IMG/VR virus record: IMGVR_UViG_3300020473_000112
Location: 1 to 25,973 of that record
Length of the DNA: 25,973 bases
Source: a virus
Reading direction: 5' to 3' (one strand)
This document shows, piece after piece, positions 2,701 through 20,895 of the stretch. The position numbers and the translations under genes were made by a program. Numbering within the stretch: position 1 is the first letter of the stretch; each line of letters begins with the position of its first letter. The notes under the pieces were generated by a model. The model saw only the letters and a list, made by a program, of their open reading frames with translations. It had not been told where the DNA came from and did not search any database.

Positions 2701-5700
2701 TTACATTATATTTCTTTCTTCTATATCAGCACCACCAGGTCCTATAGCAGTGAATTTATATTTCGTTGATGCCATTGGTTCTACATTATCAGATCCAGTC
2801 TTTCCAGCAAATTGGAATGTAGGATCATTAGGTGTTGCTGTTGCTGTTAATGTATTCTCAGCATCAGTAGACCAAGATAAAGCAGCACCTAGATATATGA
2901 CATCTTGCCATTCGTGTAATATTTCAAATCTACCATTAGCATCAGTACTATCATCATCTAATAATTGTATTTCTTTTCCTTGTTGGAATTGCATCCTAGA
3001 AGCATTAGGATAATTCTTACCAGCATCAACATTTCTAGGATTCAATCCACCCCATTCAATAGGATAAGCTCCTTGTGGTAAATCAAAGTTTTGTATAGTA
3101 GATCCAGTTCTCTCATATCTAAGATTACTTGTTCTTCTAGAAGATATCATATAATCTGGATAACCATCATCGTCATCATCATCAAATCTATCATCCCATG
3201 ATGGCCAACTACCCCTCATCATAACAAAAGCAACTCCACCTGGATTATATGCCCAATCATCATTTGCACCTTCTACTGGTTCCTGTCCAGCAGGGAACTT
3301 AGAGTTCTTTATAGTAACATCTAAATTATAATCACCTGGTGTAAATCTTGAATCATTAGCAGGGAATGTTAAATCCAGTACATCACCACCTTCACCAGGA
3401 TTACTAAATTCTGCAATCCTACCTATTTCTCTAGTTGATTCTCCAACTTTTCCCAGTGCAAATGTTGCCTGATTATCTGCCTGTGCAACTAATCTAAATG
3501 ATTGGCTATTATTTCTAGGAATAGAAAATCTATATCTGAGTGTATGTACCTCATCAGCTAATGTTTGATGTGGATACCTATTATATTCAATATCCTCATT
3601 ATCCATATAATTAGCATCACCAGGGAAGATTGCATACACTTTCATATACTGTGACCAGTTATTTTCCATTCCTGGTGATTTGTTAGGGTTATTATAAGAA
3701 AGATACCAAGTTTTTGATGGTAGTCTGAATATTCTACCAGCAACTTCCATTCCACTCATATGAACACCCAATCCTTCTCTATCATTCCAACTATATTTAA
3801 TTCTGAAATTACAAATATTACCATCAGAACTGTCAGGTGGTGCTGTTACAAGTAGATTTGCTGCTCCATCTGCACCATATCCATCAGTTCCATTACCAGC
3901 ATCATCTCCAAATCTAACATAATGTGGTTTACTTACAGTAACCGTTGCAGGTGATGGTACTGGTGGTATTGGAGCTCCACCACCGATACAATCTCCTGTA
4001 TATTTTCCTTTTAGTGTACTATCTGATATTGTTCCACCTATTACCCAGTTCTTTGCTCCAGTATCAGGATTCAATCCACAAATAGCAGCACCACCTTTAC
4101 CAGCATCTTGTAATGGTGCAGCATCTAATGGTGCTGTTGGTTGACCATCTTTTCCCCAATCTCCACCATCACCACCTTTACCACCTGCACTAGAACAATT
4201 TCCACCCTGTAAATTAGTTCCTTCAGGACAAACTCCACACTGAGGTTCTGTACCATCACCACCTTCAGTTTCTTCTTGAGGACCTCCAAAAGGATTAGGC
4301 ATGGTATACCTCCATCCAGCACCATCTCCACCTCTACCACCTATACCTTGAATTGGTTCAGTAGATTTTACAATATTTTGACAAACACCAGTCTTTGTTT
4401 GATCTTCTCCTTCAGGTCCACAAGGTCCAGTACTTTCAACAGAACCTGGAACTAAGGTATCACCAGCATTACAAGTTGGTTCTTGTCCACATCCACTATT
4501 TACAACATAATTTTTAACACAATTATGTTTCATATCTTCCATAGAAGAACCAATAAGTTCTCCCATAGTGCCTTGTTCACCACCGCCACCGCCACCCCAG
4601 ACTTTAGCGTTATTCTTTAGGTAAATATCAGTTTGACTTCCAGTATGAAGTATTTTTAATGCTACTCCACCATCTTTACCTGGAGCAGATTTCTTAGGAA
4701 CACCATTTGTATATCCACCATTTGGATCATATCCACCTAAACCAGCAGATCCATAAATTGCTCCACTATCCTCAACATATATTCTAACATTATGTGCTGG
4801 AACTGCTGCATTATTTGGTTCGCTTGGTATTAACCTAGCAGCAGGTACTTTATCCTTACCATTACCAACATCACTATGATATCCATCAGTACCCATATCA
4901 CCAGAATATAGTACTTTAGTAATATAAATGTGCTTTTGAACATTTCTTGCAACATTACCATCAAGTTGATTAATACTATCTACTCCCTGTGTACCACCAT
5001 TACTCCAATCTGCTCCATTAGCACCACTAAATCTACCCATACTTAATTGAGAAATAGCACCTCCAGTACCTCCACCTGTATTATTTGTGGTTGCATAATA
5101 TCTTTTTACTGATCCTCTAAATTGACTTGTCTTCCAATCAAATCCAGCAATAGGTGTTACATTACTATTTTCTGTAGAATCTGGGACAATAGGATTTCTG
5201 TCAAGATCATTAATATTTCTTTTAAGTTCTTTTGCTGATACTGATCCAGTAGTTTTTTCTTTGAAATAACTCCTCATCTGACTGAACTTAATAGGAACAC
5301 TTCCAGTGAAATATGGTCCTGCTTTCTCAATATCTAAAAAAGCAGAAGCATGCATTGTTAATGGTCCTCCATTTGAGGTTTTATCACTATAAGAAGGATC
5401 TTCAGAAGTATTAGATGATGTTACTATTAACTTACCACCCATTCCAGCGTGATAAGAACATTGATAATAATATGTTCCTGTACTACCAGCAGGTGCAGTC
5501 CAATAGACAACACCATTTGCTAATCCTTGACCAGTTACACCAGATATTTGATCTCCAGATCCTAAAGATGCTTGCGTTTTAAGATAAAATGGATGTCCAG
5601 AAGCATCTACTAAAAAATTAACTCTCTCACCTTCCTTTATTGTAATATCAATATCATCTCCAGATACATTACCAGTACTATCCTTACCTACAAGAGTATA

Positions 5701-6006
5701 ATCTGCAGCACTAGCAGCAGTTACATCTATACTATATCCAGGTAATGGTGCAGAACTTTGAATAACAATGGTTCCACCCATTGCAGCATGATTTCCACAT
5801 TTATAATAATAAGTACCAGCATCACCACCTACAGTCTGCCATATAACCATACCATCTGTAGTACCATTATTACTTACACCAGAAACTTGATCACCTGATC
5901 CTGTTGTATCTGTCGTTTTAATATAAAATGGATGCCCAGTTGCACCATCTACATTAAGATTAATTCTATCACCTTCCTTAAATGTTATCGTAGGATTACT
6001 AGCCAT
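2701..6006 (-). CDS. Tail-fibre/adhesin-like structural protein with two cupredoxin-like domains and a Gly/Cys-rich centre
   Basis: A 1101-residue protein. Residues 1-83 and 90-197 are two homologous cupredoxin-like domains with GHPFY near the middle and YYYxCxxHxxMGG near the end. They carry His25/Cys70/His73/Met76 and His138/Cys183/His186/Met189, a complete type-1 copper ligand pattern with amicyanin-like Cys-x2-His-x2-Met spacing. The first domain lacks its expected first strand, which is found at the end of the upstream 2176-residue protein. Residues about 230-260 (SVPIKFSQMRSYF) resemble segments common in marine phage structural proteins. Residues about 470-690 are rich in Gly and contain ten Cys (GGGGGGEQG, GGKGGDGGDWG, GKGGAAICG), reminiscent of T4-like gp38-type Gly-rich receptor-binding regions. 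The C-terminal ~400 residues look beta-rich. The role is inferred to be host-surface recognition on the virion. Confidence 0.7.
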   Translation of the reverse strand: MASNPTITFKEGDRINLNVDGATGHPFYIKTTDTTGSGDQVSGVSNNGTTDGMVIWQTVGGDAGTYYYKCGNHAAMGGTIVIQSSAPLPGYSIDVTAASAADYTLVGKDSTGNVSGDDIDITIKEGERVNFLVDASGHPFYLKTQASLGSGDQISGVTGQGLANGVVYWTAPAGSTGTYYYQCSYHAGMGGKLIVTSSNTSEDPSYSDKTSNGGPLTMHASAFLDIEKAGPYFTGSVPIKFSQMRSYFKEKTTGSVSAKELKRNINDLDRNPIVPDSTENSNVTPIAGFDWKTSQFRGSVKRYYATTNNTGGGTGGAISQLSMGRFSGANGADWSNGGTQGVDSINQLDGNVARNVQKHIYITKVLYSGDMGTDGYHSDVGNGKDKVPAARLIPSEPNNAAVPAHNVRIYVEDSGAIYGSAGLGGYDPNGGYTNGVPKKSAPGKDGGVALKILHTGSQTDIYLKNNAKVWGGGGGGEQGTMGELIGSSMEDMKHNCVKNYVVNSGCGQEPTCNAGDTLVPGSVESTGPCGPEGEDQTKTGVCQNIVKSTEPIQGIGGRGGDGAGWRYTMPNPFGGPQEETEGGDGTEPQCGVCPEGTNLQGGNCSSAGGKGGDGGDWGKDGQPTAPLDAAPLQDAGKGGAAICGLNPDTGAKNWVIGGTISDSTLKGKYTGDCIGGGAPIPPVPSPATVTVSKPHYVRFGDDAGNGTDGYGADGAANLLVTAPPDSSDGNICNFRIKYSWNDREGLGVHMSGMEVAGRIFRLPSKTWYLSYNNPNKSPGMENNWSQYMKVYAIFPGDANYMDNEDIEYNRYPHQTLADEVHTLRYRFSIPRNNSQSFRLVAQADNQATFALGKVGESTREIGRIAEFSNPGEGGDVLDLTFPANDSRFTPGDYNLDVTIKNSKFPAGQEPVEGANDDWAYNPGGVAFVMMRGSWPSWDDRFDDDDDDGYPDYMISSRRTSNLRYERTGSTIQNFDLPQGAYPIEWGGLNPRNVDAGKNYPNASRMQFQQGKEIQLLDDDSTDANGRFEILHEWQDVIYLGAALSWSTDAENTLTATATPNDPTFQFAGKTGSDNVEPMASTKYKFTAIGPGGADIEERNIM

Positions 6007-6014
6007 TAGTCTCT

Positions 6015-9000
6015 CTAAATTGTGCCGTTTCTATCTACTCCTGTTAGTATATATTCATTATTATTAGGTGCTGTCACTCTTATACAATATCCTGGTTGAG
6101 AACTGTCCCTGATAGTTACAGCAAGAGTATTACCAACCTGAATTGTTCTATCAGCATTAATGTATAATTTAATAGAAATTACTTCATCACCTTCAGTAAT
6201 TGCATCTTCTTTAATTGTATGATTAAAGGTAAAAGTATTACTTGTAATAGTACCCGAACCAGTAGTAGTATCTGCTAGATTAAAGTCATCCTCAGATACT
6301 CCAGTACCACTTAATGCCCAATAAAGAACAGTTCCTTCAGCAACATCAGTTGTAGTAACTGTAGTTGTAAATGAATCTCCTTCATTAAATCGGGTAGCAG
6401 TAGTAGAAAGAGTATAAGTAGGACTTCCTGATGATTCTGAAGTATCTTTAATAAGAACATTTGTAGTTGCTACTTGATTAGTTCTTGCAGAATCAGTGAA
6501 TAATTTAATTACAGCAGTTTCATCTCCTTCAGTAGTTACATCAAGAGAAGTTGTATGAGAGAATGAAAATGTTCCATTAGCTGCAGTAACATCATCACCA
6601 GTCAATGCACCTGAAGAGAAATCAGAAGCATCTAAATTAGTACCACTTAATGACCAATATAAAGTTGTTCCTTGAGCAACATTACCAGTAACAACTTCTG
6701 TAGTCCAAGCTCCACCTTCATCAATCTGACTTACATTAGTATTCAATGCATAGGTAGGAGTTGGTGTAGTTGATGTATCATTAATAGTAACATTAAGTGT
6801 ATTACCAACCTGAGTTGTTCTTGCAGAATCAGTGAATAATTTAACCAAAAGAGTCTCATTTCCTTCAGTAAGAGCATCTGATTTTATACTGGTTGACCAA
6901 TTATTAACTCCACTTGCAGGAATTACAGTATTACTTTCTAATGTTCCCTCCATAAAGTCAGCAGCAGCTATACCAGTTCCACTAAATGACCAATATAATG
7001 TTGTATTTTCTGCAACATTAGTTGTTGTAGCAGTGATTATAAGTGATGAACCTTCATCTATTGGATTAGTATTTGCTGAAAGCACATATGTGGGTGATCC
7101 TGATGGTTGAGATGTATCATTAATTGTAATTACTGCTGAAGTTGCTACAATATTACTAAAACCAGCATCAGTAGCTAATACAATCGCAAACTTTTCTTCT
7201 CCTTCTGTTGTTGCGTCAGCAGCAATAGTATGAGAGAAAGTAATAGTATTATTTGATATAGTATCATCACCAGTCCAAGAACCTGAAGAAAAATCAGCAG
7301 CATTTACAGATCCAGTATGCTGATCTAACGACCAATATAAAGTAGTTCCTTGAGAAACATTACTTGTAGTAACTGTAGTTGTAAGGGTTTCTCCTTCATT
7401 AATAGAAGTTTTAGATGGTGTAATAGAATATGAGGGAACTACAGGAGTTTGTGATGTATCATTAATAGTAACATCTACAGTAGATCCTACTTGAACTGTT
7501 CTTCCAGAATCTGAATATAATTTGATATTAACAGTCTCTGCTCCTTCAGTAGTAACATCTTCATCAAGTGTATGTGAGAAATTAAATGAATTACTCGTTA
7601 TAGTTCCAGATCCAGTCAATGAACCTGAAGAGAAATCAGAAGCATCAACATTAGATCCACTTAATGCCCAATATAAAGTTGTATTTTCTGGAACATTAGT
7701 TGTCGTAACTGTAGTTGTAAAACTAGAACCTTCATTAACACTGGTAGGTGAAGCAGATATAGTATAAGTAGGAGCATCTACAGAAGTATCAACAATAGTA
7801 ATTGTAGAAGAAGTTGCAACTAAATTTGATCTTGAAGAATCTGTGTATAATTTTAATGTAAATGTCTCATTTCCTTCTGTGGTAGTATCGTTAGATATTA
7901 CACGAGTGAAAGTAAATTGCCCATTACTATCAAGAGTTCCTGACCCTTCTAATCCACCACTAAAATCACTAGCATTTAAAGTATTAGATATTGGATCTAT
8001 CTTCCAATAAAGAGTAGATCCTACTGAAGCATTAGTAGTAGAGACAGCAGCATACATAGTCTCACCTTCATTATAAGAAGTCTTTGCTGCTGCTATTCCA
8101 TAAGTAATACCTAATGAAGTATCCTTTATAACCTGTGTCCAAGTACTAGCAACCTGATTTGTTCTACCTGAATCCGTATATACTTTTAGATTAAATGTCT
8201 CATCACCTTCAGTAGTTACATCATTCGCTAATGTATTTGTCCAAACTGCATTACCAGAACTATTAACTGATGATGATCCAGTTAATGATGTAGTGAAATC
8301 AGCACCTGTTATATTAGTTCCAGATATTTCCCAATAAAGAACAGTTCCTGTAGTAACATTAGTTGTAGCAACAGTGGCTACTATATTAGAACCCTCATTA
8401 ACAGAACCTGTTGGTGTGCAACTCAAACTATATGATGGAGAGGCATCCACAGATGTATCAACAACAGTAAGACTACTATTTGATGCTACTTCATTTGTTC
8501 TAGCAGAATCAGTATATACTTTGAAAGTAATTACTTCATTTCCTTCTGTCGTAGAATCTTCTGCTAAAGTATAATCAGCAAAGAATGTATTATTAAATAC
8601 AGACCAAGATGATTGTAGTTGACCAGATGAAAGGTCATTAGCAGATATACCAGTCAAATCTGTATATAAGACTGTTCCATTCTCAACATTAGTTGTTGTA
8701 AGTGTATACCTAACAGTTTCTCCTTCATTAATACTTAATTCATCAGGTGCTATTGAATAAGTTGCACCTTTAGAGGTATCTTCAATATTAACATTAGCTG
8801 TGGCAACCTGAGTATTTCTAGAAGCATCTGTAAATAACTTAATATTAATAGTCTCTGTTCCCTCTGTACTTAAATCATTAGCAAGAGTATGATTGAAAAC
8901 AGCATTTCCATTAGCAGCAATAGATACCTGTCCAGTTAGAGAACCTGATGAAAAATCACCAGAAGTTATACCAGTTCCAGATAAACTCCAATATAAAGTA

Positions 9001-12000
9001 GTATTCTCAGCAACATAAGTGGTTTGAACAGTAGTAATAAGTTGTGAACCTTCATTAACAGTCAATAAATTAGTAGTTAGAATATAAGTTGGAGTTGTAT
9101 CTTCAGGTAAAGTAACATCATCAGCAACATTTAAATAATAATATACTAAACCTTGCCTAGAAATAACAAAGTTACCATTGACAACTCTTATACTAAAGTA
9201 AGTATAAGTAGATCCACCATCATTAGAAACTTCAAGAATTTGATCATTTGATCCCGATTTAATCCTAAACTTGATATTACCACGCTCAGCTGAGGTCATA
9301 TCATTAGTTGGATAAACTGGATAATATCTAACACCAGCATCAGCACCACCAACAACCCTTAGAGAAACAGGAACACTAACATCTGATTCTGAAAATTCCC
9401 TAATACCCCTAATCATCATAGTAACACCAGATTCTGAAGTTATAGTAAATCTTTCATTTAAATTTCTAGTTGCATCAATTCCACTATCTACTGTATAACA
9501 AGGATTGGGAGTGTTTATATGTGTAGTTACCTCTTTAATTACTTTAATAGGATCACCCATATTAGAATTTCCAAGTAACCATAATGGATCATTTGGATTA
9601 CTACTAGATGGTTTATATCCATTAAAGAAACTAGTTGCATCTGGAGTATTAGACTTTAAATATGATTTAAGATGAACTGGTGATGTGTGCCTATTTTGTT
9701 GTAGAACACATGCAATAGTACCAGCAAGAGCTGGGCAAGCAGAAGAAGTACCATCAAACCAACCATCAAGATATGCTTGAGATGAAGAGCTCCAACTTGC
9801 AGGAATATCATCATTTCTAGTAACATACCTGTTATCATTGGAGACAATTGAATTTGAACTCCCACAAGCTGATAACATACCATCAGCAGGTGCAAAAAAG
9901 TCTACAGCAGATCCTTTACAACTATAAAATCCACCATCAGTCATTTTACGACCAAAATACCATCCACTAAATCTATCTTTCCAAAATGGATAATCTTCAT
10001 AATTAACAGTAGCTCCAAAATCTAAAGCTGAAGGATTTCCTCTTGGACCTCCCATCGCCATAGATTCTAACTTATCACCTGTAAAATTAGAATCTACAGT
10101 TCCACTATCATTTTTTGGATCTGCACTATGATCACTAAATGGATAATTTGAATTATATCTATCATCCATTGCACCTACAGATAAGATAGTGTTTAATCCA
10201 GTTGCGTCATATGCAAGTTGTGATGGATAACTTGAACGATTGGGATATACTTTTGCATGACTTGAGTTATCACCTGCTACACCTTTAATTGTTCCATCAT
10301 CATTAAGTCTTGCTATCCAATTATCATAATTAGGATCATCTTTAGTTACAAAATAATTCTGATCATTTCCTGCAGAATTACAAAAATGAATTCCACTATT
10401 AACAGCTTCTAATGCAGCATTATATTCTGCTGCAAATCCTTCACGGGGATCATCAGTATTCTCTGCTCTAAGATGTGGAGACATTTTCCAATAATATCCA
10501 AAAGCATAATATCCAGTTGATACAAGTGCATTTCTACTAGAGGTTCTAATAAATGCTGGTAGATTAGTAACCCAAGGATTTGAATAAGAATTGTAATCAA
10601 ACCCACTTCCAGGTCCATCTGGATATTCACTATAAGAATTTCCATAAACATCCGTAGTAGGTCTATTTGGAAATGATGCCTCTGTTCCTTGATAATTATA
10701 CTTAACTCTTTCCATTCCAGATACAAAAAATCCAACATAAGCACTACCATATCCCCAACTATTACTAGAAACAGTTGGATTTTTTATAGAATTTCCACTA
10801 AACTTAGGATTATTTGGTTTAGTCTTATGAAATATTTTTTGCATCGTCCAACCACTTTCTGTAGGAACTCTGGTGGACATATCAATAGCACATATTGCCC
10901 ATTTATTACAATTGAACGCTTTTCCAAAATTCTTACCATATGCAACACCACCACACTTAGTTCCATGATCATTCACAGTAGGAAGTGTAGTATCAGTTCC
11001 ACAATTAGCTGCTCTTGTATAATTTGATGGAATAGTTATACTAAACGAACCAGTACCTGCAGCTGTACTGACAGCATTAAAAGTAGATGATCTAAGCACT
11101 GAACTATACCACCAATTTCTTGCAGTACCTTCATCTGGGACTATTGTTCCATCCCATCTAGTTATTAGCCTACTAGAAGGATCTGCATCAAACCATTCAG
11201 GATCAAGATAATATGGAGCATCCAACGCTAAATCTAAAACACCAGATTTTCCAGATCTAGATAAAACATTACCTGGAATGAAGTTTTGGGGATCTTTATC
11301 ATTAGTACAAAATTCTGGATGACCAGTCCAAGTACCAGTATCAACAATAATTAAATCAATATCAGTTCCATCATTATCATATGTAACATCACTGTTTACT
11401 ATAGCATTTGCATCTGAAGACCAAGGATTAGTACCAGCCGTAGACATTCTTAATGGACCATAATTGGTTCTATTATCTTCAGAACTAGGAATTGAAGCAG
11501 ATGTACCACTAGGAAAAGCATGAGTTAATGGTTGAGAAGGAAATGCACCACCTTGAAGTTCTGTAGTTACAAATCCTAAATGAAGTAGTTTCCAACCAAT
11601 TCCTGCAGGATTATTAGCCCAATTTCTTTTATTTGGATCAGTAGCAGTACCATTTCTTACTTTACATGTTATCTGTATTTGCGTAGACGCTGATATGTAT
11701 CCAAGATTTATAATCTCATGAAAATGCCCTCTACCTCTCTCATCTAAATCTAGAGTTCTAAATTTACTATCATTATTTTCTAATTTAAATCCAGTTGCAA
11801 CATTTTCAACCATACATCCTGCCCATTCACCATCAGCCCAGACTTGTAGTTGATAATGTCCTGCAGATGAGCAAGTAACAGTATTTGAAACCGTTTGTAT
11901 AGATGCTCTTAAAGGATCTTGATCATTAGCATTTGCAGGAGCAGATGGATATACAGCATAATCCTTCAAATCTTGACAAATTACACCCCAATAATTCATT

Positions 12001-12545
12001 GCAGGAGTATTTGGATGACTATCTGATACTTTTATCCAATTAGGAGAACCAGTAGTAGCAATTAAAGAATTTGCAACCTCAGTTGGTGTAGATGGACTAT
12101 TATTTTCTTTACTTAAATTCCTATAATTTTTTACATTCTTACCAAATCTATTAATTGAATGCACTTCAACAGGTATTCTAGCTTCTTCATGAAACTCAGG
12201 ATCTAACTGAACCCATTCAATATCAGGATGACTTTTTAGAGTATCTGCTTCTGTTTTAGTTAATTCATAACAACCTGTAGTTTCACTATGAGTTCTTTCA
12301 TTTTTACATAAAATTTGCCTAATTGGTACACTGGAAGTATGAGAACCACTACCCATCAATTCTAAATGTACTTTTTTCCAGCACTTACCATCTTTTGCTT
12401 TAATTTGATAGTTTTTTATTTCATCAGGTGCTGAATTATTAATTACACCAAAGTTATGAGTTCCACTCCAATATGCCTTACCAACCTCTTCACCAAGTTT
12501 TAGCTCTTCTTCAGAGAGCAAATAAGTTGAAAATCCAATTGACAT
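6015..12545 (-). CDS. Giant structural protein: subtilisin-like (S8) protease plus nine Calx-beta-type repeats
   Basis: A 2176-residue protein. Residues about 75-105 (ELTKTEADTLKSHPDIEWV) resemble an I9-type subtilase propeptide. The catalytic domain spans about 395-960: Asp402 in IIVDTGTWTGH, His527 in NDHGTKCGG, oxyanion Asn727 in NSAGND and nucleophile Ser934 in GTSSACP. All four are present, so the protease looks active. The spacing is much longer than in secreted subtilisins, implying insertions. A beta-rich linker follows, then nine repeats (about 1150-2148), each opening like PTYxLxxxxxxxNEG and closing xINDTS, typical of the Calx-beta family, which binds Ca2+ through acidic loops. The last residues, from PGYCIRV to DRNGTI, match the first strand of the cupredoxin-like domain that continues in the next gene 8 bases on. 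A Shine-Dalgarno TAAGGAG (12561-12555) includes the upstream stop codon. A role in adhesion with surface proteolysis or self-processing is inferred. Confidence 0.8.
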   Translation of the reverse strand: MSIGFSTYLLSEEELKLGEEVGKAYWSGTHNFGVINNSAPDEIKNYQIKAKDGKCWKKVHLELMGSGSHTSSVPIRQILCKNERTHSETTGCYELTKTEADTLKSHPDIEWVQLDPEFHEEARIPVEVHSINRFGKNVKNYRNLSKENNSPSTPTEVANSLIATTGSPNWIKVSDSHPNTPAMNYWGVICQDLKDYAVYPSAPANANDQDPLRASIQTVSNTVTCSSAGHYQLQVWADGEWAGCMVENVATGFKLENNDSKFRTLDLDERGRGHFHEIINLGYISASTQIQITCKVRNGTATDPNKRNWANNPAGIGWKLLHLGFVTTELQGGAFPSQPLTHAFPSGTSASIPSSEDNRTNYGPLRMSTAGTNPWSSDANAIVNSDVTYDNDGTDIDLIIVDTGTWTGHPEFCTNDKDPQNFIPGNVLSRSGKSGVLDLALDAPYYLDPEWFDADPSSRLITRWDGTIVPDEGTARNWWYSSVLRSSTFNAVSTAAGTGSFSITIPSNYTRAANCGTDTTLPTVNDHGTKCGGVAYGKNFGKAFNCNKWAICAIDMSTRVPTESGWTMQKIFHKTKPNNPKFSGNSIKNPTVSSNSWGYGSAYVGFFVSGMERVKYNYQGTEASFPNRPTTDVYGNSYSEYPDGPGSGFDYNSYSNPWVTNLPAFIRTSSRNALVSTGYYAFGYYWKMSPHLRAENTDDPREGFAAEYNAALEAVNSGIHFCNSAGNDQNYFVTKDDPNYDNWIARLNDDGTIKGVAGDNSSHAKVYPNRSSYPSQLAYDATGLNTILSVGAMDDRYNSNYPFSDHSADPKNDSGTVDSNFTGDKLESMAMGGPRGNPSALDFGATVNYEDYPFWKDRFSGWYFGRKMTDGGFYSCKGSAVDFFAPADGMLSACGSSNSIVSNDNRYVTRNDDIPASWSSSSQAYLDGWFDGTSSACPALAGTIACVLQQNRHTSPVHLKSYLKSNTPDATSFFNGYKPSSSNPNDPLWLLGNSNMGDPIKVIKEVTTHINTPNPCYTVDSGIDATRNLNERFTITSESGVTMMIRGIREFSESDVSVPVSLRVVGGADAGVRYYPVYPTNDMTSAERGNIKFRIKSGSNDQILEVSNDGGSTYTYFSIRVVNGNFVISRQGLVYYYLNVADDVTLPEDTTPTYILTTNLLTVNEGSQLITTVQTTYVAENTTLYWSLSGTGITSGDFSSGSLTGQVSIAANGNAVFNHTLANDLSTEGTETINIKLFTDASRNTQVATANVNIEDTSKGATYSIAPDELSINEGETVRYTLTTTNVENGTVLYTDLTGISANDLSSGQLQSSWSVFNNTFFADYTLAEDSTTEGNEVITFKVYTDSARTNEVASNSSLTVVDTSVDASPSYSLSCTPTGSVNEGSNIVATVATTNVTTGTVLYWEISGTNITGADFTTSLTGSSSVNSSGNAVWTNTLANDVTTEGDETFNLKVYTDSGRTNQVASTWTQVIKDTSLGITYGIAAAKTSYNEGETMYAAVSTTNASVGSTLYWKIDPISNTLNASDFSGGLEGSGTLDSNGQFTFTRVISNDTTTEGNETFTLKLYTDSSRSNLVATSSTITIVDTSVDAPTYTISASPTSVNEGSSFTTTVTTTNVPENTTLYWALSGSNVDASDFSSGSLTGSGTITSNSFNFSHTLDEDVTTEGAETVNIKLYSDSGRTVQVGSTVDVTINDTSQTPVVPSYSITPSKTSINEGETLTTTVTTSNVSQGTTLYWSLDQHTGSVNAADFSSGSWTGDDTISNNTITFSHTIAADATTEGEEKFAIVLATDAGFSNIVATSAVITINDTSQPSGSPTYVLSANTNPIDEGSSLIITATTTNVAENTTLYWSFSGTGIAAADFMEGTLESNTVIPASGVNNWSTSIKSDALTEGNETLLVKLFTDSARTTQVGNTLNVTINDTSTTPTPTYALNTNVSQIDEGGAWTTEVVTGNVAQGTTLYWSLSGTNLDASDFSSGALTGDDVTAANGTFSFSHTTSLDVTTEGDETAVIKLFTDSARTNQVATTNVLIKDTSESSGSPTYTLSTTATRFNEGDSFTTTVTTTDVAEGTVLYWALSGTGVSEDDFNLADTTTGSGTITSNTFTFNHTIKEDAITEGDEVISIKLYINADRTIQVGNTLAVTIRDSSQPGYCIRVTAPNNNEYILTGVDRNGTI
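6100..9097 (-). repeat. Nine tandem Calx-beta-type coding repeats (~333 bp each)
   Basis: Nine in-frame copies average 111 codons. Hallmarks in each copy are an N/DEG near the start, TTLYWxLSG or a variant in the middle, a TEGxE motif and a final DTS/DSS. Amino-acid divergence is moderate but some DNA stretches are identical, for example 28 bases at 6481-6508 and 6817-6844. This suggests recent duplication or gene conversion and a potential for copy-number change. Confidence 0.85.
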
Positions 12546-12554
12546 CTATAAGTA

Positions 12555-12561
12555 CTCCTTA
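12555..12561 (-). promoter_or_regulatory. Strong ribosome binding site of the protease/Calx-beta gene
   Basis: TAAGGAG on the minus strand lies 9 bases before the ATG at 12545. Its TAA is the stop codon of the preceding 622-residue protein, so termination places ribosomes on the initiation site. This fixes the start and suggests translational coupling. Confidence 0.75.
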
Positions 12562-14427
12562 GTGTAAATCAACCCAACTGCTTCCATTATAAACTTGCAA
12601 CTTATTAGTTGTTTCGTTATAAATGAACGCACCTGCGACAGTTGGTAAAGTATCTCTTATTGTAGTTGTAACTTTTGGTGGACGCATATAACTTGTTGCT
12701 CCTCCACTACCAGCATCTTGGAAATCAACAGCACATCTTGGAGTGTGAGTTCCGATACCTAGATTTTTAATAGAAGCATTACCCTCTACATGCAATTTAC
12801 CACTAATTGCAGTTGTTCCAATACCAACTTTATTAACTAATGCTGTACTTAACTGTGCATCAATATCAGCAACTACATTTTCAAAAGCAGTTCCAATAGC
12901 AATAGTAGATACTCCTACAACATGTCCTACACTAATATGACTAAAGGTTGAAACACCAGCAGTTGTATTAAGATTTGATCCATTAATAATATCTGGAATT
13001 GCAGCACTTCCCGTAAATCCACCCGTAACTTCAAAATTACCAACAACTTTAACATTACCAGTAAATGTTGATACACCAACAACATCGAGTGCTGTCTCTG
13101 GATTTTCCTTATTAATACCCAACTTACCATCATAGGTAAGAGTCATTATATTATTGTTACTTCTATGGAACCACTTAAATGATCCTGTATTAAGACCAAC
13201 AAAACTACCAAGATGAATATAGTTATTAACATCTCCAGTATCACCATTAAAAATATCAAGTGATTTTGAAGTACTACCAAATCTAATACCACCTATACTT
13301 TCACCAATACCAGTACTAGATACCAATTTCTGTCCAACATTTATTCTAGCACTATCAGTTCCAATAACCGTTGCTGTAGCTAATCCAACTTTTAATACTT
13401 GAATGTCATGGTCTGGAGTGTTTACCCCAACTCCAAGTTTATCTGAAATATTAAAGAGAGATGCTGTTGAAATACCAATATTAGCACTAGAAGAATTAAT
13501 ACTTCCAGTAGTAACAACACCAATAGATGTTGATGAATTTATATAAGTTACATCTAACCTAGTTGATGTAGATAATCCAAGAGAATTAACAGTACCTGTT
13601 ACATTTCCTTCTACATTACCAGTTACATCACCAGTCAAAGCTCCAGTAAATCCTATACCAGCAGTTACAATTCCAGATACATTAACATCAGTACCAACTA
13701 TATTTGTAATGGTTGATATACCACTTACTACATTACCCCTTATATCTCCAGTAAATCCTATACCAGCAGTTACAATTCCAGTAACATTAGTATTAGTAGA
13801 TTCTATTTGTCCTATGGTTGATATTCCACTATCAATATTACCAAGAACATCACCTTTAAGACTAGATGCAGTTATAACTCCAGTTGCTACAATGCCACCA
13901 GTAGAGTTTATACCTACACCCTCTGCAAAACTACCTAAATTATCTGTATTGTTACCACCAACTTGGAAGGAGAATCTAGGATCTACAGTATTGACACCTA
14001 CATTTCCTTTTGCATATATGCTTGTATATCCTAATCCAACATTAATATTATCCCACTGTGATGTAGGAACATTTTGTAAATATTGTCCATCACCAAAATA
14101 TGTAACAATACCACTGGTAGCAGTTACAACTCCAGCAGGAGATCCTACAGCAACACCTTCACCAACTTGTCCTGTACTTACATTGGCATTATTAACAATT
14201 AGTGTATCAGTTACAGTAAGTGATGTAATTATACCACTTGTTGCATTGATCATTCCAGATCCTGCAACACTTGGATCTTGAAGTACGCTAACTTTACCTC
14301 GGACATCCAAAGCCTCAGTGGGAATAGTAGTTCCTATACCAACCAGACCAGTTTGATTTACAATTAGGTTGTCGTCATCAACCTGGACACCATTACGGAA
14401 ATTGAATGCCTTTGTAATATTAGCCAT
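12559..14427 (-). CDS. Tail-fibre-like structural protein with repeated GIGTT/TGNV motifs
   Basis: A 622-residue protein starting MANITKAFNFRNGVQVDDD. Near the N-terminus VGIGTTIPTEALDVRG, and later LGVGVNTPDHD, LGINKENPETALDVVG and VGIGTTAISGKLHVEG, recur as the 'xGIGTxxPxxxLxVxG' motif seen in many phage fibre shafts. Residues about 190-290 hold degenerate repeats of the form SGISTI...VSGIVTAGIGFTG, one pair identical at DNA level over 36 bases. The C-terminus (AGAFIYNETTNKLQVYNGS, then WVDL) is a short domain common at fibre ends. There are no catalytic motifs. It lies between two other giant structural genes, 19 bases after the 1884-residue gene, without a clear Shine-Dalgarno. A tail-fibre or baseplate-associated shaft protein is inferred. 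Confidence 0.72.
   Translation of the reverse strand: MANITKAFNFRNGVQVDDDNLIVNQTGLVGIGTTIPTEALDVRGKVSVLQDPSVAGSGMINATSGIITSLTVTDTLIVNNANVSTGQVGEGVAVGSPAGVVTATSGIVTYFGDGQYLQNVPTSQWDNINVGLGYTSIYAKGNVGVNTVDPRFSFQVGGNNTDNLGSFAEGVGINSTGGIVATGVITASSLKGDVLGNIDSGISTIGQIESTNTNVTGIVTAGIGFTGDIRGNVVSGISTITNIVGTDVNVSGIVTAGIGFTGALTGDVTGNVEGNVTGTVNSLGLSTSTRLDVTYINSSTSIGVVTTGSINSSSANIGISTASLFNISDKLGVGVNTPDHDIQVLKVGLATATVIGTDSARINVGQKLVSSTGIGESIGGIRFGSTSKSLDIFNGDTGDVNNYIHLGSFVGLNTGSFKWFHRSNNNIMTLTYDGKLGINKENPETALDVVGVSTFTGNVKVVGNFEVTGGFTGSAAIPDIINGSNLNTTAGVSTFSHISVGHVVGVSTIAIGTAFENVVADIDAQLSTALVNKVGIGTTAISGKLHVEGNASIKNLGIGTHTPRCAVDFQDAGSGGATSYMRPPKVTTTIRDTLPTVAGAFIYNETTNKLQVYNGSSWVDLH
13641..13781 (-). repeat. 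Direct 36-bp repeat inside the 622-residue fibre gene
   Basis: The same 36 bases occur at 13641-13676 and 13746-13781, 105 bases (35 codons) apart and in frame. They encode the SGIVTAGIGFTG element of a longer degenerate fibre repeat, and the identity points to recent duplication. Confidence 0.88.
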
Positions 14428-14446: not shown

Positions 14447-17400
14447 TTATTTATTAGATAAAGCATCAACCTTAGTTGAAAGTTCCTTAATTGCTTCTAT
14501 TAGAAGAGGAACAAGTTTTTCATAATTTACAGCGTGAGTTCCAGTTTCTCTAACAGTTGTTACACCAGGAAGTCCAAGTTTCTCAATTTCTTGAGCGATA
14601 ACACCAGTATCTTCTTGCCCTGCTTTAGGATTCACTGTAGCACTAAGTCCATTATTCCACTTAAAGGTATTACCACTAATTGAAAGAACTTTATCAAGAG
14701 CATTAGGAATAGGTACTATATTATCCTTCAACCTTTCATCAGAAGATGCGAAGGCAGTAATGTCACCAGTACATACCAAATTACCATCAGTTTCACCAAC
14801 AACACCAATCTTAACACCATCACTGGTAGTTTCTAGTCTTTGTCCACCACCGTGGAATAATTTAATACCCTCAGTAGCAGTATAAACTAAACCTTGCTGA
14901 CTATTATCTTTATTACCAATTTCAATATTGGCATCACTCTGAAGATATATGTTAGAGAGTTTGTTGTCTCTAATAATATTGGTGCGAGTAGTACCAGAAA
15001 CATTGTGCCATATACCAAGATAAGAGTCTGAAGCAGCTCCACCAAGAGTTAAAACTTCATTATCTACTACATGTATACCACCTTGATGTGTAGTATTACC
15101 AGTAAATACTGATTGCCCAGTTACAGCAAGTTTTCCACCAATACCAACACCACCAACAGTTGATAATGCATCATCAGCAGTTGAACAGATCTTAACTTTA
15201 TCACGAACTTGTAGTTTCTTACCAATCGCAACACCACCTGTTACAGCAAATGCTCCACTTAAAGGTCCCTGACAAGTATCAAAGTTATCTACATCATCTT
15301 GAGCAGTAAACTTAACCTTACCAAATACATTAAACTCATCAGTTATTACTAACTTATTATTAAATCTAACAGGTCCGTTGAATGTAACAGGACCATCAAA
15401 CTGAGATAGTATTGAATTATTAGATCCACCTTCAACAAGTAATCTCTCTTTGATAATTACTTCATCAAATACAACACTAAGTGTACTTGGATCTTCACCA
15501 GTTACAGTTGGAACTGGAATATCAAATGTTATTTGTTCACCAGAATCAGATGAAATCTTAGTGTTTCCAATGTAGAAATCACCCTTATCATTCATACCTG
15601 TGTAAACAACAGTACCACAAGAAGTTTCTTGTGACTGTGATAGGAACTCTTCCCTTTCAGTTAGAGTCTTAAGTTGAACCTGTGGTAAACCAGTTGAATA
15701 GTTACCTGGACCATAACCAAGATATTCAAATGTATGCCCTGAAGCTCTTAAAATAGATGGTCTTCGTAATTCAACAGGAAGTGGATTAATCTTAGTTACT
15801 AACTGTCCAATAACATGGTTATCAACAATAGTACCTAATGCACCACGAATAACTTTTAATTTAACACCAGTTTGAATCGTCTTATCAATAACTCTTAGTA
15901 TCTCATTCTCAATTTGAATATAACATCCTAATGGGAATCTTGCTTGAATAGATGCAGATGTTGTTGATCCATCAGGTAAAGCAATTGGAATCTCATCTTC
16001 TGTAGAATTAATATTAGCAGTTAACTTTAGATTCTCATTACCAAAGAATGATACTCCTCTAGTTCCTAAACTCTCTCCACCCTTACCAGATTGTGCATCA
16101 TTAGCAGATAGACCATGTTTAAGAATATACTTAGGATCTGTTAATCCAGCAGCAGAAGTTATCGCTTCAAATTGAGAGAAATTAATAACTTTTGAAACTA
16201 TATAATCACCTAGATTTGCATCAGAAGAATTTAAGACCCTAAATCTATTTCCTTCTAATAATCCATGAGCAGCACTACAAACAAAAGTAGTAGTATTGCT
16301 TGATTGAACTGCTGAAGTCACATCAACAACAGCACCTAATCCAATTACTTGCTGACCATCAAGAATAAGTTCATTTGCAGTCTTATTAATATTGATAGAC
16401 TTTGTAGATGGAACATCATTAATTCTGAAATAATGATCTGTACCAGTAGTAATACCTGTTACCTGAACATAATGTCCTACAGATGAACTAACATTATCAC
16501 CAGCGATAGTGATATATGCACCAGGACCTCCTCCACTACTGATTCCACCTTGATCTACTAAAGAAGCATCAAAGAATAGATTGTTATTTGCTGCATTACC
16601 ACTAACTTTATAACCAGATCCTGGTTCAGTTATCTCGAATGAAGTAACTGCTCCACTAGCAACTGTAACTGATGCAGTAGCACCTTTCCAAACAGCAGTA
16701 GATGGTGCAGATGCATCATCAAATAATTTTATATTATGATATGTACCATCAGCATAATTAGATCCACCAGACCCAAGTGTAGTAGCATATCTTAATCCAT
16801 TAAACTCATGTTCAGTATCAAAATTTAAAATAGCAGTTGTCGTACTATCATTTACCGTAGTAATAGTATTAGAAACACCAAAGTTACTTAATAACTTATT
16901 AGTAGTTTCTCTAGTAATACTCTTTTTAAGGTCATTAGTAACAACATCACCTATTGGGAATCGTTTTGCATAGGTTTGTGCTTCCTGTGGGTTCTCATTT
17001 ACATTATCTCTATCTAATTGTGGATAAAGATCTGTAACTGCCTGATTATATTTTGAATCAGTAAACTCTTCTTCTATGGCATTATTACCATTAAGAACAT
17101 ATAAGTGGAAAACACCATCTTGAGCACCTTCGATATATGGTGATATTGTTTCTGATCTATAAATGTATAGATTATCTTGGTTATCTGTTCTTTCAAATCT
17201 AGGTAAGGTTGTGTTCCTAGTATGAGTATCATTTGTCCAAGTTCCAACATTATGCTCTATACCTAAAACATCAGTTGTCTTGTATTCAAATGTTTTATCG
17301 TTTATAACATTATTTACTAAGAATATTCCATTATATCCACGATCAGCAGCACCATTAGTATTAGTATCACTGATTATATTCTTAATTGTTATCTGATCAC

Positions 17401-20101
17401 CAACATTTAAATTATGCTTCTTATCAGATCTAACAGTAACAATCTTCGTTGTAGGATTATAAGTCAGATAAGATATAAACCTTAAGTTTCTATTGAAATC
17501 ATAATCAGTTGATCCAATTGATACTCTAGTAAAGTCTTCATTAAATCTAGAATTAGTAGAACTAGAATCCTGAATTACAAATCCATCATTAGGATCTCTA
17601 GCATTTTGCAATTCTTTTGGAATTACATATCTAACCTTATAAAGTTTATCATCTAAACTTCTATTATCACTTCTTCTATCAATATATGGAATTTCCTCAT
17701 CATCGTCAGATAACACTGATGTTGCTGAAACTGCCTCTGAAGTATAAGTGTTTGTACCAGAGTCTACATGCATATACCAGTTATTCTGTGTAGAATCCCA
17801 TTGCATTGGGTGTCCTAAATCACCTGGTTGCTTATCAGAAACTCTACTAAGAATTTTTAGTAAACCTGCAGCAGGGTTAGATATAGTTTTAAGATATACA
17901 GGAGTTGTTCTTTCAGCATTAGTTCTTGATGCTGCAATTTGTATTTCATACTGATTTAGACTTAAACCATCTTGTCTACTTGCATTCTTTTCATCAGTAA
18001 TTGCATAATAGACTTGGTGTGGATTTAATCCTTCAGGTAAATCTCCACTCTCAGATATAATTCTTATCGACTCACCATTATTCAAATGATGAGCTGTTGT
18101 CATTGTTAACTTATGAATTAAAGTAGCAGCCCCAGTTGTAGTATCATTATGGGTTGCTTCATATGCTTTTTCTGAGGAGAAACTAGTGCTTTCATTTGTA
18201 GTACCATTTGGTCTTACCTTAGATGGCATTACAATATATGCCTGTAAATCAGTTCCACCATCTATAGGAATAGTAATCTTTTCATTAAATCTAGAACCAA
18301 TCCTGAATCCTTGTGCAACATCAGTTGGTTTAATACTCTGAGTTGTCTGACCTAAAATATATAATCTCTCAGGATTATTTGCATCTTTGTTTACTGACTT
18401 ATCAAGTTGTGCTAATTCAATAGGTGCTTCATTAGTAACAACTGCTTTTGGTGCAATAATGGAAGTAATAAATCCTTTATCATCCTTAGCAAATGCATCC
18501 TTCTTAAATCCATCAGCAGCAAGAGCAAACTGTCCAAAGTTAGAGTTAGAGTTTGTAATTGATGCGTCACCACCAGACTTCATATAGAAGTGAATGTGAT
18601 AACCAATAGCGAACACAGAAACTATCTGGAAGACAGCATCATTCTCTAGTGTAATGTGAGCAGTTTTCCAACCATCTCTATAAACAGCATCCTTATCTAA
18701 ATGATAAACCTGTCCTTCAGTAGGAGCAGATGACTTAGATGATAATAATTCACCAGTTTGTTTTTGATATTGAATACCTTCATAAGATCTACTCTCTGGA
18801 AGATATTTTACAAATGCACGATCATCTTTCTGTAGTGAGACACCAGTAAACTGGGCAACAACCATAGATTTGAAACCTGTTGCCTTAGATCCATCAGCAT
18901 GCATACCTTGCATACCATAAACAGATCTCAATGAACAGTTAAAGATATATGGAGATGCACCACTAACAGTATCAACCTCAACACTAACTTCTGCACCACC
19001 AGCAGTCAACCCACTAGCAGGACCAGCAGCTAAATTTGCAGGAACAAATGAAAGTAGATAAGTGAACTGAGTATCATTTAAAACATTCTGTACCTTTGTT
19101 GAAATATTATACTCTTCCCAATTAACACCTTCAATCTTGATAGGAGTACCACCAGTTAATTCATGAGGAACTGCTGTTGTTACTGTAACAACTTGTCCTG
19201 GTGTTGCACCATCACCTGAAATAATACTTGTAATCTGAATACGATCAGAATTAAAAGCACCAACTATTTCATACTCAGGTCTTTGCTTGGCAAATGATTC
19301 TCTTTCTGTTGGGAATTTCTGATCTATTTCTCTACCAGATGCCCTGTTATATGCATTAGATAATTTACTATAGTAAACATCTAGATCAGTTAATCCACTA
19401 AAATTATCTAATGAATTTATACCATCTGCATATGCAAATACAGTTAATTTATGGTGAGAAAATACTGGTTTTGATTGATTAGTTGTACTGAAATCTTGTG
19501 GGTCAGTATATACTAAAGTATTCTCATCTCCATCAAAAATAGTAAATTGCCAGAAATAGCAAGAACCAGTAACTCTGAATATTGCAGCAGTTTTTACAAA
19601 ATCATCAGTAGGATTAGGAACATACTTAGGTCTTATCTTAGTCTTTCTTAAATCTAGTCCAACAATAGATGTTCCTCTAGGAACTATAACACCACCTTCT
19701 GTACTGTTAAACTTATAAAGTAAATTATCTTCTTGCGTTAAATCAAAATTAGAATTTAATGTAAGTGTTAGTGTATTAAGTGCTCCACTTTCTGTTCCAG
19801 CAGGACTAACTGCCTTTGCTACACCATTCTCATCCCTAATACCAAATCCTGGTCTATTATCTACAAGGTGTTCACCAGGAAATAATAATATAGTTGTTTT
19901 CTCTACTATATCATTATCATTCCCTCGCAGGTAGGAAAATCTAGCAGATTCAAGAAGTGCTCTTTGAATCGTTTTAAACGGTTTTGTTAATGAATTACCC
20001 TGATTCTCAATACCGTCTGTAGCATCAAGGTCATTGGGATTTACATAAAGAATGCGTCCTTCACTATTCTTTATAAAATTTTCTAATTTATTAAGAGGCA
20101 T
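14447..20101 (-). CDS. Giant tail-fibre/tailspike-like protein with C-terminal S74 intramolecular chaperone
   Basis: An 1884-residue protein. The N-terminus, GRILYVNPNDLDATDGIENQ followed by KPFKTIQRALLESARF, resembles the start of long marine T4-like phage structural proteins, with a KTIQRAL motif like the capping region of right-handed beta-helix tailspikes. The middle ~1500 residues are beta-rich with recurrent ligand-like segments such as VTVTTAVPHELTGGTPI. From about 1600 the motif 'VFTGNTTHQGG' and relatives suggest a fibre shaft. The last ~97 residues are a peptidase_S74 domain: ASSDERLKDNI with the Ser1787-Asp1788 self-cleavage pair, then NTFKWN, TGVIAQEIEKL, AVNYEKLVPLLIEAIKEL. In this family the domain trimerises and folds the fibre, then cleaves itself off. 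No clear Shine-Dalgarno precedes the ATG at 20101. Confidence 0.83.
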   Translation of the reverse strand: MPLNKLENFIKNSEGRILYVNPNDLDATDGIENQGNSLTKPFKTIQRALLESARFSYLRGNDNDIVEKTTILLFPGEHLVDNRPGFGIRDENGVAKAVSPAGTESGALNTLTLTLNSNFDLTQEDNLLYKFNSTEGGVIVPRGTSIVGLDLRKTKIRPKYVPNPTDDFVKTAAIFRVTGSCYFWQFTIFDGDENTLVYTDPQDFSTTNQSKPVFSHHKLTVFAYADGINSLDNFSGLTDLDVYYSKLSNAYNRASGREIDQKFPTERESFAKQRPEYEIVGAFNSDRIQITSIISGDGATPGQVVTVTTAVPHELTGGTPIKIEGVNWEEYNISTKVQNVLNDTQFTYLLSFVPANLAAGPASGLTAGGAEVSVEVDTVSGASPYIFNCSLRSVYGMQGMHADGSKATGFKSMVVAQFTGVSLQKDDRAFVKYLPESRSYEGIQYQKQTGELLSSKSSAPTEGQVYHLDKDAVYRDGWKTAHITLENDAVFQIVSVFAIGYHIHFYMKSGGDASITNSNSNFGQFALAADGFKKDAFAKDDKGFITSIIAPKAVVTNEAPIELAQLDKSVNKDANNPERLYILGQTTQSIKPTDVAQGFRIGSRFNEKITIPIDGGTDLQAYIVMPSKVRPNGTTNESTSFSSEKAYEATHNDTTTGAATLIHKLTMTTAHHLNNGESIRIISESGDLPEGLNPHQVYYAITDEKNASRQDGLSLNQYEIQIAASRTNAERTTPVYLKTISNPAAGLLKILSRVSDKQPGDLGHPMQWDSTQNNWYMHVDSGTNTYTSEAVSATSVLSDDDEEIPYIDRRSDNRSLDDKLYKVRYVIPKELQNARDPNDGFVIQDSSSTNSRFNEDFTRVSIGSTDYDFNRNLRFISYLTYNPTTKIVTVRSDKKHNLNVGDQITIKNIISDTNTNGAADRGYNGIFLVNNVINDKTFEYKTTDVLGIEHNVGTWTNDTHTRNTTLPRFERTDNQDNLYIYRSETISPYIEGAQDGVFHLYVLNGNNAIEEEFTDSKYNQAVTDLYPQLDRDNVNENPQEAQTYAKRFPIGDVVTNDLKKSITRETTNKLLSNFGVSNTITTVNDSTTTAILNFDTEHEFNGLRYATTLGSGGSNYADGTYHNIKLFDDASAPSTAVWKGATASVTVASGAVTSFEITEPGSGYKVSGNAANNNLFFDASLVDQGGISSGGGPGAYITIAGDNVSSSVGHYVQVTGITTGTDHYFRINDVPSTKSININKTANELILDGQQVIGLGAVVDVTSAVQSSNTTTFVCSAAHGLLEGNRFRVLNSSDANLGDYIVSKVINFSQFEAITSAAGLTDPKYILKHGLSANDAQSGKGGESLGTRGVSFFGNENLKLTANINSTEDEIPIALPDGSTTSASIQARFPLGCYIQIENEILRVIDKTIQTGVKLKVIRGALGTIVDNHVIGQLVTKINPLPVELRRPSILRASGHTFEYLGYGPGNYSTGLPQVQLKTLTEREEFLSQSQETSCGTVVYTGMNDKGDFYIGNTKISSDSGEQITFDIPVPTVTGEDPSTLSVVFDEVIIKERLLVEGGSNNSILSQFDGPVTFNGPVRFNNKLVITDEFNVFGKVKFTAQDDVDNFDTCQGPLSGAFAVTGGVAIGKKLQVRDKVKICSTADDALSTVGGVGIGGKLAVTGQSVFTGNTTHQGGIHVVDNEVLTLGGAASDSYLGIWHNVSGTTRTNIIRDNKLSNIYLQSDANIEIGNKDNSQQGLVYTATEGIKLFHGGGQRLETTSDGVKIGVVGETDGNLVCTGDITAFASSDERLKDNIVPIPNALDKVLSISGNTFKWNNGLSATVNPKAGQEDTGVIAQEIEKLGLPGVTTVRETGTHAVNYEKLVPLLIEAIKELSTKVDALSNK

Positions 20102-20367: not shown

Positions 20368-20895
20368 CTACAATCTAAGGATTTTGTCAATATTCATAGA
20401 GATACACATTCTCTTTCCTTTAGTGGGTGGAATCTCATGAAATAAAATTGATGGCCAAACTAAAAGCAATCCATTTTCTGGTGTGATGCTAGTTTCATCT
20501 TCAAATATAATCGGTGAGCAATCATCCTCAACATCAATATAATAGCAACAAGAAAATGCACTAGTAGGAAAATGATGATGCTTAATAGCAAAATCACCTT
20601 CTTCATACATCATTGCCCACATATTAATAGGTTGATACGAACTATCTAACTTATAATAAGAACAAGATATAAATTCACAGACACTGCACACCTCTTCAAT
20701 TAATGGATTAAATTTATCAGTTTCGTGATGTGTATAATATGAACTTGTCCATGATGACTTTACATTAGTCTCATTAGTTTCTGGATATTTTTTTCTATGA
20801 TTTAAAACATCCGTCTTCAAATAAGTATAATTTTGCAAATTAGTATAAAAAATACTTACAGAACTATTAACATTCTCTACACCAATATCAATCAT
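20368..20895 (-). CDS. 2OG-Fe(II) oxygenase-like protein (putative hydroxylase)
   Basis: A 175-residue protein matching the shape of the small phage/bacterial 2OG-FeII_Oxy_5 family. WAMMYEEGDFAIKHHHFP (93-110) supplies the first metal ligands (His106-108), TSAFSCCYYIDV is the following strand, LLLVWPSILFHEIPP carries the distal His153, and KRMCISMNI has Arg162, which would bind the 2-oxoglutarate carboxylate. Family members couple oxidation of 2-oxoglutarate to hydroxylation of a substrate; the substrate here is unknown. Its ATG overlaps the carbamoyltransferase stop as ATGA, so the two are translationally coupled and probably act together. An unusual feature is the three consecutive His where HxD or HxH is expected. 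A link to the Lys-rich collagen fibre is a hypothesis only. Confidence 0.75.
   Translation of the reverse strand: MIDIGVENVNSSVSIFYTNLQNYTYLKTDVLNHRKKYPETNETNVKSSWTSSYYTHHETDKFNPLIEEVCSVCEFISCSYYKLDSSYQPINMWAMMYEEGDFAIKHHHFPTSAFSCCYYIDVEDDCSPIIFEDETSITPENGLLLVWPSILFHEIPPTKGKRMCISMNIDKILRL

Follow-up and report, generated by a model that had tools for sequence, protein, structure and literature searches.

Genes for subtilisin-like (S8) serine proteases beside tail-fiber genes are already known from the annotation of cyanophage genomes. Their products are recorded as "subtilisin-like serine protease" in S-WAM2, S-H38, and S-H9-1, as "peptidase S8 family domain" in S-SCSM2R (XQU50116), and as "contains PF00082 domain" in P-SSM2 (PSSM2_297), and an S8 peptidase was mentioned, without a function, for P-HM1 and P-HM2 (Sullivan et al. 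2010; PMC3037559). The PHROGs entry for the phage S8 family (phrog_9158) is of unknown function, and the literature searched contained neither a description nor a functional study of a characterized S8 protease from a cyanophage tail. Here we analyze P0001, a protein encoded in a 25,973-base virus record (IMG/VR record IMGVR_UViG_3300020473_000112; this whole stretch of DNA is referred to as the window) in which an S8 domain is followed by Calx-beta-fold repeats.

The annotated cyanophage S8 proteins share with P0001 the catalytic domain, an invariant catalytic tetrad, an N-terminal prodomain region, and a tail-fiber neighborhood. Most of them, however, are 600 to 750 amino acids (aa) long, lack both the Calx-beta repeats and the domain that precedes the catalytic Asp in P0001, and are encoded at another locus. 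Proteinase K, aqualysin, and keratinase have the catalytic fold in common with P0001 but are secreted as separate enzymes, and their loops are much shorter. Since many cyanophages have S8 genes in the tail region, some of them already annotated, only the architecture of P0001 is unusual; a preliminary description of this DNA, made from the sequence alone, had named no characterized tail protein with this architecture.

The S8 domain of P0001

The preliminary description had placed Asp402, His527, Asn727, and Ser934 in canonical S8 contexts (i.e., VDTG, DHGTK, SAGN, and GTSSACP, respectively). All four residues are at these positions and are invariant in the aligned relatives (Table 1), despite a mean column identity of only 20 to 34% in the phage S8 alignment; outside the tetrad, the 89 aligned phage proteins have approximately one-third of their residues in common with P0001. 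At the level of single sequences, the Pfam family PF00082 did not match P0001 at E values of up to 1, and a search of the Protein Data Bank (PDB) with P0001 as a single query gave no match. PF00082 matched all eight of the P0001 relatives scanned (E = 1e-9 to 2e-28), and, in the PDB, a profile built from P0001 and its relatives retrieved S8 enzymes (keratinase, aqualysin, and proteinase K; E = 2e-20).

An AlphaFold2 model of P0001 aa 1 to 1155 had a mean predicted local distance difference test (pLDDT) score of 67, with scores that exceed 85 for most of the blocks that surround the catalytic residues; the inserted loops were of low confidence, and the core was of higher confidence. The best structural matches to the model were keratinase, aqualysin, and proteinase K (VIA-align 2; Z of approximately 29 to 31, with nearly all of their residues aligned). 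Because 279 of the 282 residues of keratinase 5wsl align with the model (Z = 30.6; root mean square deviation [rmsd], 2.7), the subtilisin fold of P0001 is complete. The sequence, the modeled fold, and the conservation of the tetrad thus show an intact S8 fold within a phage fiber protein, as had been proposed. The assignment of P0001 as a protease is well supported and its predicted activity is likely, while its substrate is one that we infer, as discussed below.

The distances between the catalytic residues of P0001 (Asp-His, 125; His-Asn, 200; Asn-Ser, 207) exceed those in proteinase K (30, 92, and 63, respectively). The long insertions that had been singled out as unusual are therefore real relative to proteinase K but normal for the phage S8 family, in which the median spacings are 125, 146, and 144.

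An I9-like propeptide had also been suggested in front of the protease. The topology of the model at aa 43 to 114 agrees with this suggestion, and the region is conserved across the phage S8 family; at the sequence level, Inhibitor_I9 (Pfam) gave weak matches in 6 of 25 family members (best E = 0.012). Between this prodomain and Asp402 lies a beta-rich domain of approximately 200 residues, which among the 89 aligned proteins is common only to L013, L014, and L015 (L numbers denote the loci compared here) and which also occurs in L098. Where P0001 has this domain, the S8 protein of S-TIM54 has an esterase-like (BD-FAE) domain.

The Calx-beta array and the split cupredoxin-like domain

The proposed fusion of the protease to about 1,000 residues of Calx-beta repeats is borne out by nine repeats of approximately 108 residues each. 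Pfam scores for these repeats were weak (Calx-beta [PF03160], 0.026, below the cutoff; Ig_3, 6e-4; Big_2, 2e-4). A single repeat, when modeled (pLDDT = 95), matched CALX-CBD1 best (Z = 10.6; 101 residues; rmsd, 2.8), and Foldseek gave an E value of 3e-4 against the Calx-beta fold. An immunoglobulin (Ig) identity (i.e., Ig_3 or Big_2) was dropped, as the fold comparison ranks CALX-CBD1 first. Five acidic positions (E14, D46, D72, E76, and D105) are invariant in 26 repeats, as expected for putative calcium-binding sites. The same type of repeat (49% identical) is present without a protease in P-SSM2 PSSM2_126 (L011:11830-13287), which adjoins terminase genes.

The last 26 residues of P0001 are similar to those that open the intact second cupredoxin-like domain in the downstream fiber protein, P0002 (12 of 26 residues identical; a similarity reached by 0 of 20,000 shuffled sequences). 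The ATG of P0002 follows the stop codon of P0001 after an 8-nucleotide (nt) spacer and lies in a different frame. Since seven other contigs, L013 and L015 included, have the same split, we regard it as a real and conserved arrangement. An assembly error or frameshift at the boundary was rejected on the same grounds and because the spacer is shorter in those contigs than in the window (5 nt in L013 and L015). No slippery sequence was seen at the boundary on inspection by eye.

The similarity suggests that the end of P0001 and the start of P0002 may fold together into one cupredoxin-like domain. The type-1 copper ligands of the two P0002 domains (H25, C70, H73, and M76; H138, C183, H186, and M189) are conserved in three aligned proteins. 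Three copies of such domains, with four putative type-1 copper ligands each (H; C-x2-H-x2-M), occur among the fiber proteins of the window (positions 5419-6006 and 23529-25877, minus strand), and the ligand pattern is present in 50 fetched loci, for which the search pattern itself demanded these residues. We tentatively suggest, as a possibility rather than an expectation, that P0001 and P0002 are locked by the joint domain and that fiber assembly and protease display may depend on copper or on joint folding.

Table 1. Coordinates in the window of P0001, its parts, and the adjoining fiber genes
Feature	Position	Strand	Remark
P0001, S8 protease/Calx-beta fiber protein	6015..12545	(-)	2176 aa, single open frame; tail-fiber genes adjoin
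I9-like prodomain, P0001 aa 43-114	12204..12419	(-)	AlphaFold2 topology beta-alpha-beta-beta-alpha-beta; conserved in relatives
Beta-rich domain between prodomain and Asp, about aa 140-350	11496..12128	(-)	Few relatives
S8 catalytic domain, about aa 355-1010	9516..11483	(-)	Z 30.6 to keratinase 5wsl
Asp402 codon	11340..11342	(-)	Conserved in 89/89 aligned proteins
His527 codon	10965..10967	(-)	Conserved in 89/89 aligned proteins
Asn727 codon (oxyanion hole)	10365..10367	(-)	Conserved in 89/89 aligned proteins
Ser934 codon	9744..9746	(-)	Conserved in 87/87 sequences long enough to include the position
Beta domain after the protease, about aa 1011-1140	9126..9515	(-)	AlphaFold2 strands; present in L013-L017 and L098
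Nine Calx-beta-fold repeats, aa 1152-2149	6099..9092	(-)	Fold by single-repeat model
Split cupredoxin-like domain, first strands, P0001 aa 2151-2176	6018..6095	(-)	Conserved in eight contigs
P0001/P0002 boundary: stop codon TAG, then AGAGACTA, then ATG of P0002	6007..6017	(-)	Sequence
P0002, downstream fiber protein	2701..6006	(-)	1101 aa; aa 224 onward orthologous to PSSM2_035
Split cupredoxin-like domain, remainder, P0002 aa 1-82	5761..6006	(-)	Ligands H25, C70, H73, M76
Intact second cupredoxin-like domain, P0002 about aa 88-196	5419..5745	(-)	PF00127 E 5e-5; phrog_677
P0003, upstream tail protein	12559..14427	(-)	phrog_3269; 51% to PSSM2_034
P0004, tail fiber protein with C-terminal Peptidase_S74 chaperone	14447..20101	(-)	68% to P-SSM2 fiber

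Relatives, locus comparison, and exchange

A search of viral contigs with P0001 as a single query found no relative, and an alignment was needed as the query. With family members as queries, tblastn located S8 proteins in approximately 46 cyanophage records, and a scan of IMG/VR with the family alignment located at least 320 stretches that encode them. In cyanophages, the S8 genes adjoin tail-fiber genes, and in P-SSM2, S-SCSM1, and S-T4 they lie inside tail-fiber clusters. The S8 and Calx-beta combination, for which the preliminary description had suggested a search in other phages, occurs in L013, L014, L015, L017, and L098. The two IMG/VR loci L013 and L015 resemble the window most fully (i.e., S8, the extra N-terminal domain, seven to nine Calx-beta repeats, the split cupredoxin-like domain, and the gene order), although their S8 parts are only approximately 40% identical to that of P0001 and the spacer differs as described above. 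The combination of S8, a Calx-beta repeat, and a P0002-type fiber region is also shared by L014, L017, and L098, which differ from the window in having a single repeat, one continuous open reading frame (truncated in L098, where the contig ends), and no cupredoxin-like domain; the S8 and Calx-beta part continues in frame into the P0002-homologous region in L014 and L017, and L098 begins the same fusion.

Other relatives carry other modules. The S8 protein of L016 ends in a Peptidase_S74-type fiber chaperone, and the S8 homologue of S-SCSM1 is combined with LamG. The S-TIM54 virion structural protein UYE97265 (2140 aa; L006:11995-18417) is, like P0001, a giant S8 fiber-type protein that contains repeats as well as a cupredoxin-like domain, but its repeats are Ig in place of Calx-beta and the BD-FAE esterase domain precedes its protease. 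At the orthologous locus of P-SSM2 and AG-345-F15, the P0003 gene is followed by a shorter P0002-type gene without a protease, and each of these genomes has an S8 gene elsewhere; PSSM2_297 was considered as a candidate for the same locus as P0001 and rejected, since it lies in another P-SSM2 fiber cluster. The S8 module, which is fused, combined, or absent depending on the fiber locus, is thus a mobile component of these loci.

Comparison of L013 (7703-12442) with L015 (712-5463) revealed 84% DNA identity over the S8 gene and the first Calx-beta repeats, beginning just before the start codon, whereas the flanks are approximately 70% identical. The synonymous divergence is 0.12 in S8 versus 0.5 to 0.9 around it. 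This low divergence relative to the surroundings points to a recent exchange of the S8 gene and the first repeats, probably as a cassette, between the two phages.

In a search for a cellular origin among 84,980 genomes, S8 relatives were found at only five loci, and two of these, L098 and L101, have clear T4-like phage genes. L098 comes from a Pelagibacteraceae single cell (AG-345-F21; SAR11 group), in which the phage contig may be either a hint of the host or a passenger. In L101 (5701-8112), a contig of a T4-like phage that was binned with Gammaproteobacteria, a whole cupredoxin-like domain is inserted between the Asn and Ser of the S8 domain.

Nearly all genes of the window are on the minus strand, in the order collagen-like fiber protein, small tail genes, carbamoyltransferase, 2-oxoglutarate (2OG) oxygenase, P0004, P0003, P0001, P0002, and methylase-like genes. 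The Nol-like carbamoyltransferase and 2OG-Fe(II) oxygenase genes (20892-22619 and 20368-20895, respectively, minus strand) thus lie between tail genes. The fiber of Prochlorococcus phage P-SSM2 matches P0004 from end to end at 68% identity, which places the source among the marine T4-like phages of the Kyanoviridae type. That P0001 belongs to the tail fiber is well supported by the upstream fiber genes and by the fusions of S8 to fiber domains in relatives (L014, L017, and L016).

Possible roles of the protease

The S8 homologue of S-SCSM1 (SSCSM1_228) is labeled "(virion protein)" in the genome record, in which 48 genes in all carry this label. According to the report on that phage (PMC9602691), its virion proteome comprises 45 proteins by mass spectrometry, and NMNAT, ORF213, and ORF214, which are named there, carry the label. 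Given these three labeled proteins and the similar counts, the label most likely denotes detection by mass spectrometry.

We lean slightly toward a reading in which P0001 is a virion component that carries a proteinase K-type S8 protease on a tail-fiber scaffold, matures itself, and cuts host surface proteins. The N-terminal prodomain would fold the protease and then be removed by the protease itself, and the Calx-beta array would, in seawater, form a stalk stiffened by calcium. The last 26 residues of P0001 and the N terminus of P0002 would complete a cupredoxin-like domain, joining both proteins into one fiber, and the displayed protease would cut host surface proteins, giving access to the receptor or membrane. 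Of the three functions that had been proposed for the enzyme, digestion of the host surface is ranked first, and this choice rests on context, i.e., the varied modules in relatives (LamG, esterase, and Ig), the absence of the protease at the P-SSM2 locus, and the exchange of a cassette whose catalytic core has a ratio of nonsynonymous to synonymous substitution rates (dN/dS) of 0.87 between L013 and L015, compared with 0.3 to 0.6 in most neighboring parts. The core value fits a host-facing protein. Several points weigh against this reading: the dN/dS statistic is noisy and comes from one pair only, some relatives have S8 without any stalk, and, with 48 labels for 45 proteins, the S-SCSM1 label falls short of proving detection.

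The same prodomain, conserved across the phage S8 family, also counts for a maturation protease that, as the virion is assembled, cuts itself and neighboring fiber or baseplate proteins and is without a host substrate, as S8 enzymes normally remove their own prodomain, and the adjoining Peptidase_S74 chaperone shows that fiber proteins are cleaved in this type of virion. We nevertheless consider this role rather unlikely, because the locus of P-SSM2 and AG-345-F15 has the neighboring fiber proteins yet lacks the enzyme (with the S8 gene elsewhere in both), T4-like phages already have the prohead protease gp21, and accessory modules of such size and variability are more in keeping with display than with assembly. 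The chance is smaller again that the protease acts after binding, cutting its own fiber or the receptor for phage release or for a change in fiber shape. The protease and the presumed receptor-binding fiber protein are parts of one polypeptide or are encoded by adjacent genes, which would suit such a trigger, but no recognizable cleavage linker was found, without a systematic search, and nothing specific speaks for it. As for a structural pseudo-enzyme, in which the S8 fold would be only a rigid fiber module or adhesin, P0001 is too divergent to score against PF00082 and its cleft could be blocked by the long insertions; the invariance of the four catalytic residues in 89 proteins with otherwise about one-third identity to P0001 makes this explanation highly improbable.

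Several features of the locus are described here for the first time: the S8 and Calx-beta architecture, which in relatives is fused to the downstream fiber protein; the cupredoxin-like domain divided between two genes; and the same locus in P-SSM2 without the protease. The split domain provides a specific hypothesis for the joining of two fiber proteins. Virion enzymes that clear the way to the host are mostly known to act against polysaccharide or peptidoglycan. A strictly conserved and widespread fiber S8 protease in the most abundant T4-like phages of the ocean suggests that proteins on the host surface, too, may form a barrier or receptor layer that is digested. Since phrog_9158 is listed without a function, naming this family turns hundreds of "hypothetical" fiber genes into an enzyme that can be tested in the culturable phages S-SCSM1 or P-SSM2.

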